Position numbers and translations under genes: made by a program. DNA of 64,000 bases, from NCBI GenBank assembly GCA_030654175.1, contig JAURXZ010000019.1, positions 1 through 64,000 on the forward strand. Direction: 5' to 3'. Positions 26,538 through 31,413 of this stretch are shown here, piece after piece (position 1 is the first letter of the stretch; each line of letters opens with the position of its first letter). Source of the stretch: Bacteroidia bacterium. GTDB taxonomy: Bacteria > Bacteroidota > Bacteroidia > 2-12-FULL-35-15. The notes below the pieces were generated by a model that saw only the letters and a list, made by a program, of their open reading frames with translations, was not told the origin of the DNA and searched no databases.

Positions 26538-27329
26538 ATGCTAAAAAAACAGTTCTCACTTTTAATATTAATTCTGTTAGTATCAGTTACCGCATTCGCA
26601 CAAGTGGCCGGTATTCCTGAGCGTCCGAGTCCTCCCCGTTTGGTAAATAACCTTTCAAAAGAGATGCCAGACTTTTTATCTCCGGATGAAGTGGAAAGGC
26701 TGGAGCGTAAACTTTCTGATTTTGCAAATCAAACATCCAACCAAATAGTTATTGTTATTGTTGACGATCTGGGTGGCGATGAACCCTGGAGTTATGCTAC
26801 TGAACTAGGGCAAAAATGGGGCGTAGGACAAGGTAAATTTGATAATGGTATTGTTATCCTCGTGAAGCCAACAGGTGGTGAAGGACAGCGTAATTTGCAT
26901 ATTGCTGTAGGTTACGGGCTTGAAGGAGCTATTCCCGATCTAACCACCAAACAAATTCGTGAAAACGAAATGTATCCCTACTTCAAAAAAGGAGAATATT
27001 ATACTGCTTTGGATAAAGCTACCGATGTATTGATGGCAATGGCCAAAGGCGAATATAGTTCCGATGCCTATGGCAAAAAAAATAAAAAATCATTTCCAAA
27101 AGGAATTATAATTCCGCTCATATTATTTATTCTGTTCATTGTTTTCAAAGCCAGCAAACGTGGTGGAGGCGGTGGAGGTTTAACAATGGGCGCAGCAGGA
27201 TTTATACTTGGTAATGCATTCGGCCATAGAGGTGGTGGCGGAGGTTTTGGTGGTGGTGGTTCTTCTGGTGGCTTTGGCGGTTTTGGTGGTGGCGGATTCG
27301 GTGGCGGTGGTTCCGGTGGGAATTGGTAA
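26538..27329 (+). CDS. membrane-anchored TPM-domain protein with Gly-rich tail
   Basis: 263 residues. The signal peptide ends AFAQ near residue 22, then a TPM domain at about 40-170 (LSPDEVERLERKLSDFANQTSNQIVIVIVDDLGG, NGIVILVKP, GYGLEGAIPD). One transmembrane helix follows (about 190-204), and then a tail of over 50 residues of Gly-rich GGGG/GGFGG repeats ending GGSGGNW. This is the classic YgcG-like layout that pairs with LemA. It presumably sits in the inner membrane with the TPM domain in the periplasm (inference). It completes a LemA-TPM-TPM cluster. Confidence 0.9.
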   Translation: MLKKQFSLLILILLVSVTAFAQVAGIPERPSPPRLVNNLSKEMPDFLSPDEVERLERKLSDFANQTSNQIVIVIVDDLGGDEPWSYATELGQKWGVGQGKFDNGIVILVKPTGGEGQRNLHIAVGYGLEGAIPDLTTKQIRENEMYPYFKKGEYYTALDKATDVLMAMAKGEYSSDAYGKKNKKSFPKGIIIPLILFILFIVFKASKRGGGGGGLTMGAAGFILGNAFGHRGGGGGFGGGGSSGGFGGFGGGGFGGGGSGGNW

Positions 27330-27335
27330 TGCGGG

Positions 27336-27599
27336 GTCATCCCGAGCGGTAGCCGAGGGATCTTTTTATTGATTATGGTAAATGTGATTACTAGGAATGA
27401 ACTTATTTTCTGCAATGAACTAACAAGATTCCTCCACTTCGGTCGGAATGACTCTATAGGAAATGACATTATTGGGAAGTCATCCCGAGCGGTAGCCGAG
27501 GGATCTTTTTATTGATTATGGTAAATGTGATTACTAGGAATGAACTTATTTTCTGCAAATGAACTAACAAGATTCCTCCGCTTCGGTCGGAATGACTCT
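27336..27599. repeat. tandem pair of a MITE-like intergenic element
   Basis: Two nearly identical copies, 27336-27455 and 27479-27599, with a 143-bp period; they differ by one inserted A and one A/G change. Each begins GTCATCCCGAGCGGTAGCCG and ends with GATTCCTCC(A/G)CTTCGGTCGG followed by AATGAC. The ends are imperfect inverted repeats about 26 bp long, opening with the same GTCAT. A decayed end (GGTCTGAATGACCTCT) follows near 27635. No transposase is present. It fills the gap after the TPM gene. Confidence 0.85.
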
Positions 27600-28064: not shown

Positions 28065-29006
28065 CTATTCTCCCAACCACTTCTCAATTTCTCCCTGATC
28101 CAGATCAATATAATAAACAGTGTGTTCCACAATACTATTATTCACCAAATAGATGGCAGGCATCTCTGTTCCGGCTAAGTATATAAAATGATTTATGGGC
28201 TTTCCGCCTACCAGCATACAATGTGGAATATCTTCTGTATGTGTTTCTTCAAAAAATGATTTTAAATTTTTTTCGTCACCGTTAAGTACAAAGTAAAAGG
28301 GGATAGAAGGATTACGTTCATGAATAATTCTGATCTTATTAGCCGCTATCCTACAATGCGGGCATTTTAAACTCATAAATGCAATAATATGCTTTCCTTG
28401 CGAAAGTGTTTTTGGTGGGACGTTAAGCGTTGCATGTTGATAAAGGGTGTCCAATTCAATTTTAAAATTTTCTTCCGCTTTATTGAGATATGCTTCTGAA
28501 TAGTTTAATTCAACAGTGTTAAGTATAAAGGGCATTGCAAATGCTGAAAGGAATAGCAATGTATTTATAATGGCAGGTCTTTTACTAAAATTCCAACCAT
28601 CGTGATACTTATACAAAATAAAAAAGCCAACAAGCATAATTGCATTTTTTATCAATGCCTGCAAAGGTGTCATTTGTATAAAAGTGCCAAAGCAACCGCA
28701 ATTGCCTTTATTGCCGGTAAAGAAAATCAATAAAATAAGATAAACAGAAAATATAAGCAACACTGCAATGCCAGATCTATAAGCAATTTTGCGAAGACTG
28801 ATATTGAAGAGCAGAAGAACACCTATAAAAAATTCAAGACCTATTAGGATTCGTGAAATAAATGGAGCAACCTGCCAATTAATAAAACCAAGATCTACAA
28901 AAGTATATTCAAAAGGCTCAATAGGATATAGTTTTGTATATCCTGAAAACAAGAATACTGCACCTAAAAAGGCGCAAAGAAATACGAGTGCAATTTTTTT
29001 TAACAT
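28065..29006 (-). CDS. MauE/DoxX-type membrane protein fused to a thioredoxin-like domain
   Basis: A 313-residue two-domain protein. The N-terminal part (about residues 1-145) has four transmembrane helices with a conserved Cys-Gly-Cys-Phe-Gly (CGCFG) near 100-104, as in MauE/DoxX proteins. After a linker, a thioredoxin-like domain carries a SLKCPHC active site near 211-217 and an EMPAIYLV end-motif near 283-290. MauE-family proteins are linked to periplasmic disulfide formation, and the fusion suggests redox transfer across the membrane to an exported Trx domain. The start at 29006 is preferred; an upstream extension would run into the terminator hairpin. Confidence 0.85.
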   Translation of the reverse strand: MLKKIALVFLCAFLGAVFLFSGYTKLYPIEPFEYTFVDLGFINWQVAPFISRILIGLEFFIGVLLLFNISLRKIAYRSGIAVLLIFSVYLILLIFFTGNKGNCGCFGTFIQMTPLQALIKNAIMLVGFFILYKYHDGWNFSKRPAIINTLLFLSAFAMPFILNTVELNYSEAYLNKAEENFKIELDTLYQHATLNVPPKTLSQGKHIIAFMSLKCPHCRIAANKIRIIHERNPSIPFYFVLNGDEKNLKSFFEETHTEDIPHCMLVGGKPINHFIYLAGTEMPAIYLVNNSIVEHTVYYIDLDQGEIEKWLGE

Positions 29007-29018
29007 ATTTGGGTGAAA

Positions 29019-29052
29019 AAAAAGCGTTCCCGACTGATCTGGAACGCTTTTT
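29019..29052 (-). terminator. terminator hairpin of the small lipoprotein cluster
   Basis: AAAAAGCGTTCC, loop of 10, GGAACGCTTTTT. On the - strand it lies 21 bp after the stop of the last small lipoprotein (29073) and upstream of the MauE/Trx gene, so it separates the two units. Confidence 0.85.
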
Positions 29053-29072: not shown

Positions 29073-29315
29073 TTATTTAAGATCGCAAGTGTTTGTCCAT
29101 ACATAACTTGTTCCGCCAAAATCATAAGTACCGGATGTGCTAAGGCATGCTGCTCTTGCATCAGCTTTTTTAGCATCTGTATAAGTTTTTATGCTTGTAG
29201 AAGAAGTGCTGCCAGGAGCTGTGCTAGTGGTTGTACAAGTACAAGTACGGTCTTTTTTGCATGAAGCAAAAGAAAATGCAGATATAACTGCAACAAATAA
29301 TAATACTTTTTTCAT
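29073..29315 (-). CDS. small Cys-rich lipoprotein, paralogue 1 of 3
   Basis: 80 residues. N-terminal MKKVLLFVAVISAFSFASC with lipobox Cys19, then KKDRTCTCTT. The mature part holds a CTC pair (C25, C27), a further Cys in RAACLS, and a terminal TCDLK. Two near-copies lie upstream on the same strand with the same four extra Cys positions. It is likely a small outer-membrane lipoprotein with disulfides. Function unknown; no matching named family was recognised. This copy has a longer Ser/Thr insertion after the CTC motif (TTTSTAPGSTSSTSIKT). Confidence 0.8.
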   Translation of the reverse strand: MKKVLLFVAVISAFSFASCKKDRTCTCTTTSTAPGSTSSTSIKTYTDAKKADARAACLSTSGTYDFGGTSYVWTNTCDLK

Positions 29316-29367
29316 GTTTTTTTTAATTTTTTAAAATGATTAAATAGGTAAATTAATTGTATACAAT

Positions 29368-29595
29368 TTATTTTAGTTCGCAGGTAGTTGTTTCTAAATC
29401 AGTACCAGTGCCTGTTGTATGATCTATACAAACTTTTTTAGCATCACCTTTTTTAGAGTCAATAATAGTAACAACGTCAGTAGTGGCTGGTGATCCATCA
29501 GTATATACAGTAGTACAAGTACAAGTACGGTCTTTTTTACAAGAAGCAAAAGAAAAAGCAGAAATAACTGCAACACATATAAATAATTTTTTCAT
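29368..29595 (-). CDS. small Cys-rich lipoprotein, paralogue 2 of 3
   Basis: 75 residues, paralogous to its two neighbours: MKKLFICVAVISAFSFASC then KKDRTCTCTTVYTDGS, with later Cys in KKVCID and in the end TTCELK. The lipid-attachment Cys19 is followed by Lys-Lys-Asp, a charged start often seen in Bacteroidota lipoproteins. A mid-section VTIIDSKKGDAKK aligns with TYTDAKKADARA in paralogue 1. It is 52 bp from paralogue 1 and 56 bp from paralogue 3; no promoter was seen in either gap, so one operon is likely. Confidence 0.8.
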   Translation of the reverse strand: MKKLFICVAVISAFSFASCKKDRTCTCTTVYTDGSPATTDVVTIIDSKKGDAKKVCIDHTTGTGTDLETTTCELK

Positions 29596-29651
29596 GTTTT
29601 TTTAGTTTTTTTAGTTTGATTAAAAAAAAATAGTAATATCTGATTTTTCAA

Positions 29652-29879
29652 TTACTTCAGTTCACAAGTTCTTATAGTTGTAACAGTACCGTCCACTTTA
29701 GTTGAACTTAAACAATTCGCTCTTGCAGCAGCTTTTGTAGCTTTTGGAAAAGTTGTAACATCAGCGGTTCCACCTGCTACACCGTTATAAGTTGATGTAC
29801 AGGTACAAGTTTGATCTTTTTTGCAAGAAGCAAAAGAAAATGCAGAAATAACTGCAACAAATAATACTACTTTTTTCAT
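29652..29879 (-). CDS. small Cys-rich lipoprotein, paralogue 3 of 3
   Basis: 75 residues and the first gene of the triplet. MKKVVLFVAVISAFSFASC then KKDQTCTCTSTYNG; it keeps the Cys of ARANCLS and the terminal RTCELK. A good Bacteroidota promoter lies at 29911-29941, 32 bp before its ATG. The N-terminal 19 residues are almost identical among the three while the middle diverges, suggesting repeated duplication under constraint for export signal and Cys frame. Function unknown. Confidence 0.8.
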   Translation of the reverse strand: MKKVVLFVAVISAFSFASCKKDQTCTCTSTYNGVAGGTADVTTFPKATKAAARANCLSSTKVDGTVTTIRTCELK

Positions 29880-29910: not shown

Positions 29911-29941
29911 CAAACCTAATACATTTATTCTAATCTACAAA
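29911..29941 (-). promoter_or_regulatory. strong Bacteroidota promoter for the small lipoprotein triplet
   Basis: On the - strand TTTG (29938-29941), 19 bp spacing, then TAGGTTTG (29911-29918): an exact match to TTTG-N19-TAnnTTTG. The ATG of the first lipoprotein gene is 32 bp away, giving a leader of about 25 nt. Confidence 0.75.
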
Positions 29942-29987: not shown

Positions 29988-30386
29988 CTATTGCTGCTTA
30001 ACAGGAATAGCACTATAAACACTTGTTCCATTCACCGCTGTAATGTTTACCGGTAGGCCATTCGAACTGATAGAACTTCCATTAACCTCTTTGAAATTAA
30101 CAGGTAAAGCACCATGAATGCTGCTGCCTCCTATTTCTTTTAAATTGATAGGCAATGCTCCATATACACTGCTGCCTCCTATACTTTTTAAATTTACATC
30201 CAATTGATCGCTTACTAACTTCACATTAATAGAACCATCATTATTTACAGGAACGGTTGCAAATTTGTTAAAATTGGTTTTATCGGCTTTGGCTTCATTA
30301 ACTATGGTGGTGTTTTGAATAACAAGCAGTACAAGGGCTACCGCGATTACTGTCAAAATTGTTTTAGTATAAATATCTGTTTTCAT
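29988..30386 (-). CDS. membrane-anchored short-repeat protein
   Basis: 132 residues. One N-terminal transmembrane helix (about residues 10-27, TILTVIAVALVLLVIQNTT) and then, from about residue 60, four tandem units of 16-17 residues: LDVNLKSIGGSSVYGA, LPINLKEIGGSSIHGA, LPVNFKEVNGSSISSNG, LPVNITAVNGTSVYSA, plus a final IPVKQQ. The regular L-P-V-N-hydrophobic beat suggests a small beta-solenoid or strand-repeat fold outside the membrane (inference). No family was recognised. It lies upstream of the small lipoprotein triplet on the same strand, 108 bp away, with its own -7-like TAATTTCG at 30411-30418. Confidence 0.75.
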   Translation of the reverse strand: MKTDIYTKTILTVIAVALVLLVIQNTTIVNEAKADKTNFNKFATVPVNNDGSINVKLVSDQLDVNLKSIGGSSVYGALPINLKEIGGSSIHGALPVNFKEVNGSSISSNGLPVNITAVNGTSVYSAIPVKQQ

Positions 30387-30666: not shown

Positions 30667-31413
30667 ATGGCAAAAGTACAGTTTGGTAAATGGTTAGGCG
30701 GAGGTTTGGGATGGGCCCTGGGTGGCCCTTTAGGAGGTATTCTTGGTTTCGCTTTAGGTTCTGCATTTGATGCTGCAAGTGTTACTGTTAAAGATGATGG
30801 TAAAACAAAATATATTTCTGGCGGAGCTCCGCATGTAGGTGATTTTACTGCGAGTTTATTGGTATTGTCGGCCGCTGTGATGAAAAGCGATGGAAAAATA
30901 CTGAAGAGTGAATTGGATTATGTAAAAAAGTTTTTAGCCCGGCAGTTTGGGGAAGATCATGCTCAGCAGCAATTACTAATGCTGAAAGAAATTTTAAAGC
31001 AAGAAATTCCATTGCACCAGGTTTGTACTCAGATCAAGCAATTTATGCCGCATTCTGAAAGATTGCAGATCATTCATTATCTTTTTGGCATATCAAAAGC
31101 CGATGATCATGTGCATGAGTTGGAATTACAAACAATTCATACAATTGCTAATTACCTTGGTATAAGCGCTGCTGATTTTAATTCACTGAAGGCAATGTAT
31201 TTCAAGGATGCAACAAGCGATTACAAGATCCTTGAAATAGAAACTTCTGCAACGGATGAAGAAGTGAAAAAAGCATATCGTAAAATGGCTGTGAAATTTC
31301 ACCCTGACAAAGTAGCAGCACTTGGCGAAGAGGTTCAGAAAGCGGCAAAAGAAAAATTTCAAAAAGTACTGCAGGCTTACGAAAACATTAAAAAGCAACG
31401 TGGGTTCTCTTAG
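30667..31413 (+). CDS. TerB-like plus DnaJ-domain protein (DjlA-like)
   Basis: 248 residues. A glycine-rich N-terminus with membrane-insertion potential (GKWLGGGLGWALGGPLGGILGFALGSAFD), a TerB/tellurite-resistance-like helical domain at about 60-170 (VMKSDGKILKSELDYVKKFLARQFGE, ISKADDHVHELELQTIHTIANYLGI), then a C-terminal J-domain with the HPD tripeptide at 212-214 (KAYRKMAVKFHPDKV). This matches the DjlA-type layout, a co-chaperone that stimulates DnaK at the membrane. Solitary gene with a promoter at 30615 and a palindromic terminator at 31436. Confidence 0.9.
   Translation: MAKVQFGKWLGGGLGWALGGPLGGILGFALGSAFDAASVTVKDDGKTKYISGGAPHVGDFTASLLVLSAAVMKSDGKILKSELDYVKKFLARQFGEDHAQQQLLMLKEILKQEIPLHQVCTQIKQFMPHSERLQIIHYLFGISKADDHVHELELQTIHTIANYLGISAADFNSLKAMYFKDATSDYKILEIETSATDEEVKKAYRKMAVKFHPDKVAALGEEVQKAAKEKFQKVLQAYENIKKQRGFS

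Follow-up and report, generated by a model that had tools for sequence, protein, structure and literature searches.

The small cysteine-rich lipoproteins A, B and C, encoded in tandem in the window (the whole 64-kb stretch of DNA analysed), belong to a large family without an entry in the curated libraries searched (Pfam, NCBIfam and PHROGs). An inner-membrane fusion of a MauE domain and a thioredoxin domain (MauE-Trx), encoded by the next gene, is the conserved partner of these lipoproteins in many Bacteroidia. With presumed disulfides and a presumed direction of electron flow, we consider it somewhat likelier than its negation that MauE-Trx is a dedicated oxidative-folding enzyme and that the lipoproteins are its clients. 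The features of the locus are listed in Table 1.

Table 1. Features of the locus in the window, in the order of transcription.
Feature	Position	Strand	Description	Basis
Putative Bacteroidota-type promoter before A, TTTG-N19-TAGGTTTG (listed as TTTG-N19-TANNTTTG)	29911..29941	minus		conserved position in relatives
Lipoprotein A	29652..29879	minus	75 aa, transcribed first	ORF; family profile match 3.2e-27
Lipoprotein B	29368..29595	minus	75 aa, transcribed second	ORF; family profile match 1.6e-27
Lipoprotein C	29073..29315	minus	80 aa, transcribed third	ORF; family profile match 1.4e-29
Terminator-like hairpin and T-run, between C and MauE-Trx	29016..29052	minus		stem-loop 29024-29052, T-run 29016-29023
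MauE-Trx fusion	28065..29006	minus	313 aa from ATG, next gene after C	Pfam MauE, thioredoxin fold

The lipoprotein family and its cysteine frame

The triplet of small ORFs described in the earlier note, with export signals, KKD, CTC, a mid Cys and TC(D/E)LK ends, was seen at the locus in all these details, and the middle part of the paralogues has indeed diverged within a kept Cys frame. When the window was scanned with a strict pattern (a lipobox followed by exactly five Cys, namely the lipid Cys, CxC, a Cys and a Cys near the end), A, B and C alone were selected. A and B share 61-62% identity with C and are its sole strong matches in the genome of origin (51 contigs, 5.1 Mb). The family profile adds one solo relative in this genome (C27:144990-145202), and the genes flanking it encode nothing similar to MauE-Trx.

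Lipoprotein A is closest to the first cluster gene in four loci of relatives (L038, L039, L040 and L042), and the genes of L038 and L042 follow a recognisable A-B-C order, as do in part those of L039 and L040. In two pairwise comparisons, the dN/dS values were 0.16-0.68 for A, B and C and 0.08-0.09 for MauE-Trx. Rapid diversification by positive selection was rejected, as the lipoprotein values, though higher than those of MauE-Trx, stay below 1. The lipoproteins appear to be under purifying selection while evolving faster than MauE-Trx, and since their dN/dS is raised but still purifying, it would speak for divided labour among the paralogues and not for a free-running variable antigen.

With C as the query, matches at E 0.01 were obtained in 38 of 59 related genomes. 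The family profile, built from a 30-row alignment (A1), matched 125 of 295 Bacteroidia genomes at E 1e-3, which corresponds to 80 of 155 genera, and strong matches (E 1e-7, a cut-off chosen after inspection of the data) were found in 73 of the 295. Homologues beyond the source strain are widespread among Bacteroidia, and no characterised family was matched. The named genome collection contained 179 confirmed family places, 80 of which were retained for the analysis. Nearly all of the retained records are labelled Bacteroidota and they span several orders; the one labelled Azovibrio probably reflects a binning or naming error. The possibility of plasmid-borne spread was discarded, as C had no match in 72,556 plasmid records.

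The lipobox pattern was passed by 171 of the 174 ORFs from the 80 named loci and the window, and the three that failed were left out of the cysteine count. Exactly five Cys (the lipid Cys and four others) are present in all 171 mature proteins, and the full Cys spacing pattern in 170; the exception is merely longer. The invariant or near-invariant mature positions are the five Cys, K2, K3, D4, K32 and A35. Two deviant relatives, both adjoining a MauE-Trx gene, were also seen: one has more than four extra Cys (L178:1198-1425), and the CxC frame of the other is degenerate (L197:1234-1422).

The libraries were searched with 95 mature members, hand-picked, mainly by length, from 148 non-redundant mature sequences (alignment A2). 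Neither Pfam nor PHROGs gave a shared family for them (one stray match each, at 0.008 and 0.0036, respectively), NCBIfam gave no match, and the earlier reader had not recognised the family either. In the PDB sequence search, the mature lipoprotein matched no chain at E 10. New_glue, DUF4995, VolA/Pla-1 and Rv1155_F420 were rejected as families of the lipoproteins, all these matches being sub-threshold and without weight.

The 62-aa domain of mature C was modelled using AF2 and the 95-row alignment (mean pLDDT 95.5, pTM 0.72). The predicted fold is beta-beta-alpha-beta-beta (strands 3-13 and 21-30, helix 32-38, strands 42-48 and 51-61), with C7 and C9 in the first strand, C39 right after the helix and C59 in the last strand. 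Because this confidently predicted compact fold has a median I/L/M/F/W content of only ~7% and an S+T content of 32% in the mature family members, cross-links are expected in it. The fixed, even set of four exported Cys in such a hydrophobic-poor domain points to two structural disulfides. As the first predicted strand begins two residues past the lipid Cys, the domain should sit directly on the membrane, with hardly any linker. The model had no convincing relative in the PDB by Foldseek (best E 0.24), and the best VIA score was Z 4.5, with unrelated proteins tied; neither result implies a new fold.

The surface-export signal of Capnocytophaga canimorsus is given as C-X-K-(D/E)2 in the available text of PMC5080379. 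All 171 lipoproteins have K at +3, and 169 of them have at most one acidic residue at +2 to +6 and so lack this signal, a comparison that is merely suggestive as surface-export signals vary by genus. SusD (PF14322), sought in the genome of origin as a guide to the local signal, gave no match. The residues at +2 to +6 suggest, though weakly, that the lipoproteins face the periplasm.

Several other features were noted in the window. The exported 132-aa protein encoded at 29988-30386 (minus strand) contains GGSSVYGALPINLKEIGGSS-type repeats and has no above-cut-off family match; in L097, a relative with a similar start precedes the lipoprotein array. The region 27327-27599 contains an 89-nt stretch in two copies (96%) and a 42-nt stretch (98%) with a spacing of 143-144; these repeats carry TCATCCCGAGCGGTAGCCGAGGGATC and have the appearance of an intergenic repeat element. 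The ORF at 30667-31413 (plus strand) has TerB and DnaJ domains and is DjlA-like, with a score under the NCBIfam DjlA cut-off.

The MauE-Trx fusion as partner

Pfam MauE (PF07291) matched the fusion at 1.9e-21 (77.1 bits, cut-off 27), and the Pfam thioredoxin models matched it below threshold only. In the structure comparison, the thioredoxin part matched 1lu4 at E 1.6e-4, and ResA, TlpA, DsbE and M. tuberculosis DsbF are among the proteins it resembles. The fusion contains two putatively periplasmic motifs, CGC (103-105) and CPHC (215-218). The CxxC and the cis-Pro position (Pro283) are invariant in 36/36 aligned fusion relatives and the C-x-C of MauE is present in 34/36. In the model of the fusion (pLDDT 86.8, pTM 0.61), five long helices are followed by the thioredoxin domain, and CGC stands after the third helix. 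Since helices three and five precede them, CGC and the thioredoxin domain are predicted to share one side of the membrane, presumably the periplasmic one, whichever the orientation. Neither DsbB (PF02600) nor VKOR (PF07884) matched the fusion at E 1, and none of the Pfam-scanned neighbours in the window suggests a mau cluster with methylamine dehydrogenase subunits.

In 22 of the 29 loci of relatives other than our own, the gene directly following the lipoprotein is the fusion. Of the 80 named-collection loci, 34 have the fusion gene on the same strand no more than 2 kb downstream, and no MauE gene is adjacent in the other 46. The MauE search gave 74 places in 70 of the 295 genomes. Sixty of these align through the thioredoxin part (full-length) and 14 through the MauE half only, a division which rests on the aligned range and was made after inspection of the data. 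In the 1.5 kb upstream, a strict-pattern lipoprotein encoded on the same strand is present at 39 full-length places out of 60 versus none of the 14 (Fisher 5e-6); L186, which repeats L165, is not among the 39. Relaxed inspection revealed further lipoprotein relatives upstream at L174 and L178 and downstream at L188, L193 and L212, the last being a MauE-half-only place. As a separate observation, a lipoprotein gene in L109 (~742-2992, one strand) is flanked by two MauE-Trx genes.

At the level of genomes, the full-length fusion is present in 58, of which 55 have a strong lipoprotein match, versus 18 of the 237 others (Fisher 5e-40, genome kinship ignored); with the lipoprotein cut-off at E 1e-3, the table reads 55, 70, 3 and 167. 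Among the fusion genomes lacking a strong match, G253 has a divergent lipoprotein copy immediately before the fusion, truncated where the contig ends, the fusion gene of G101 is itself cut at a contig end, and no lipoprotein was found in G201. Full-length fusions were not found in 18 of the 73 genomes with strong lipoprotein matches, 16 of which have MauE-like or thioredoxin-like relatives by profile, mostly longer proteins encoded elsewhere. In G221 (L239), a thioredoxin protein without MauE occupies the place of the fusion beside the lipoprotein, and in G315 (L223) such a protein stands beside a divergent lipoprotein. Meanwhile, the C-x-C of MauE is absent at 11 of the 74 MauE places, all 11 of which have the lipoprotein. 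These places, together with the thioredoxin proteins without MauE, make the thioredoxin-lipoprotein pair the firmest core of the linkage, and the same 11 places indicate that the CGC step is probably not universal among the MauE-Trx relatives. Our search of open-licence papers found no report of the pair.

That the lipoprotein is so tightly linked to a membrane protein with a thioredoxin fold suggests that MauE-Trx makes or maintains the lipoprotein disulfides. The motif CPHC is that of DsbA and favours oxidation; the relatives of ResA, TlpA and DsbE are mostly reductases, which counts against an oxidative role. It is unlikely, in our estimate, that MauE-Trx is a reductase keeping the four Cys reduced for a metal, e.g., copper, and that the lipoproteins are metal buffers or chaperones. 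The nearest structures of the thioredoxin part do include ResA, TlpA and TlpA trapped with the copper chaperone Sco; TlpA-type proteins reduce Sco and CuA for metal binding, and CxC is a common soft-metal motif. However, the window thioredoxin motif is the DsbA-like one, and the lipoprotein family alignment contains no invariant His or Met as a further ligand. The SCO1/SenC gene downstream of the lipoprotein in L096, which would fit a metal role, is the sole metal-linked one among ten neighbours at MauE-less loci. These neighbours (Glyoxalase, PheS, AIR synthase, MORN, sulfotransferase, desaturase, PrmA, one unassigned, SCO1 and TrmA-type) are unrelated to one another, and another recurrent partner at such loci was rejected on this ground.

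The lipoproteins might also have ordinary structural disulfides made by any oxidant, with MauE-Trx as a general periplasmic oxidase and a neighbourhood inherited without any private relation. DsbB was sought in the 295 Bacteroidia genomes and found in none, and VKOR was found in 22, so that the class needs some other general oxidase; in addition, at 21 of the 60 full-length places the strict pattern picks out no lipoprotein upstream. Yet the co-occurrence of fusion and lipoprotein in genomes (55/58) is tighter than a general oxidase predicts, and the 225 of 295 genomes without a MauE match still have to fold disulfide proteins. This makes a general role rather improbable. The dedicated oxidative-folding role of MauE-Trx is favoured by the presence of VKOR in only one of the 70 MauE-positive genomes; that this one is the window's own, in which the gene is free-standing (G000:C17:42941-43306), counts against it. 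The 46 named loci with no MauE gene adjacent, the 18 lipoprotein genomes in which no full-length fusion was found and the deviant relatives in L178 and L197 likewise count against that role.

Promoter and intergenic hairpin

Four occurrences of the strict promoter pattern were counted in the window, with an expectation of 0.84 and a maximum of 4 in 100 simulations. The consensus promoter that had been proposed before A is thus modestly founded on the window pattern alone, and its similar placement across relatives adds support: in 26 of 35 loci (27 by a slightly different rule), TANNTTTG precedes the first lipoprotein gene, mostly ~25-33 nt ahead of the ATG, against 15% of the shuffled upstream regions.

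The terminator expected after the last lipoprotein gene was found as a stem-loop with a T-run. The stem-loop escapes the standard terminator scan because its loop has 10 bases, and the T-run stops 9 nt ahead of the MauE-Trx ATG. A hairpin lies between the lipoprotein and MauE-Trx in 33 of 35 loci versus 2.6% of the shuffled gaps. As the median distance from the T-run to the MauE start is 16 nt (40 nt or less in 25 of the 33 loci), a promoter hardly fits between them, so MauE-Trx would be read by read-through or from a promoter farther upstream. With the terminator-like hairpin separating them, the lipoproteins and MauE-Trx probably do not form one plain operon, and simple co-transcription is not expected. 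The earlier note had described a neat operon of paralogues and the MauE/thioredoxin gene as a mere candidate for co-expression. The paralogues stand, but the closed unit is incomplete, as the MauE-Trx gene is a conserved partner; the status of a mere co-expression candidate does not hold, since the linkage is conserved and yet the hairpin intervenes.

The hairpin is not peculiar to the MauE junction: it also terminates 33 of 45 lipoprotein arrays without MauE behind and occurs between paralogues in 22 of 86 pairs. Since MauE-less arrays end in like hairpins, the locus is most simply read as giving a strong lipoprotein transcript that closes at the hairpin, followed by an enzyme gene of weak expression, and a role of the hairpin in the stoichiometry of client and enzyme is, for the same reason, a guess.

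Proposed oxidative folding and known systems

In the proposed mode of working, the lipoproteins would be exported by Sec and lipid-anchored, and their small Thr/Ser-rich domains would be held by two disulfides. MauE-Trx would oxidise the newly lipidated proteins while they are still within the inner membrane, and the client thiols would pass electrons to CPHC, from which CGC and then probably a quinone would receive them. The folded lipoproteins would then reach the outer membrane and most likely face the periplasm there; through its diverged loops, each paralogue may have a partner of its own. The intergenic hairpin would provide plentiful client and scarce enzyme.

We also considered that the lipoproteins could be redox-active carriers of oxidising equivalents from MauE-Trx to outer-membrane clients. 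Redox-active CxC motifs occur in Mia40 and Hsp33, the invariant CxC of the lipoproteins is six residues from the lipid anchor, at a membrane height like that of the MauE CGC, and the class is without DsbB. However, all four Cys are retained together, as though structural, and the sorting of lipoproteins to the outer membrane is one-way, so that recharging would need another route. Such carriers are highly improbable. We regard as quite improbable, too, a hitherto undescribed disulfide relay formed by MauE-Trx and the lipoproteins in Bacteroidia, in which the lipoprotein CxC ferries oxidising equivalents from the quinone pool of the inner membrane to outer-membrane proteins.

Between about a quarter and two fifths of the Bacteroidia genomes sampled (73 to 125 of 295) contain this family, which has a strict Cys frame and no entry in the curated libraries searched. 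The tie of the lipoproteins to a membrane thiol-disulfide enzyme offers a handle on how periplasmic disulfides are made in these Bacteroidia, in which DsbB is absent and VKOR mostly absent.

Dedicated oxidative folding by MauE-Trx can be compared with several known systems. In the available text of PMC7794033, MauE, which acts with MauD and the beta subunit of methylamine dehydrogenase, is speculated to take part in disulfide formation, and candidate RiPP clusters of Streptomyces have MauE/MauD beside precursors with at least eight Cys. As far as that text describes these systems, they share with ours a MauE-family membrane protein and a thioredoxin-like partner beside a small, exported, Cys-rich protein. 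Unlike them, MauE and thioredoxin form one chain here, and the putative client is a four-Cys lipoprotein instead of an enzyme subunit or a RiPP precursor. The BT_3928-type proteins (NCBIfam NF045576) have the MauE domain in common with the window fusion, but its 55 bits are below their cut-off of 250, and the longer proteins that match by the MauE half only differ from the fusion in having a lipoprotein upstream at 0 of 14 places. The lipoproteins resemble the PG1828 family lipoprotein (NCBIfam NF050142) in the signal peptide and the CKK start; however, the three window lipoproteins reach only 27.3, 27.4 and 23.8 bits against a cut-off of 50, and this match lies mainly in the signal, with 0 of the 95 mature members matching. 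The exported client, thioredoxin-fold oxidant and membrane dithiol of the proposed mode of working are like those of the DsbA/DsbB and VKOR systems, whereas the fusion is not homologous to DsbB or VKOR by the searches made. A dedicated thiol-disulfide enzyme with a small Cys-rich client is a known kind of system, of which the MauE-Trx and lipoprotein pair is most likely a variant.
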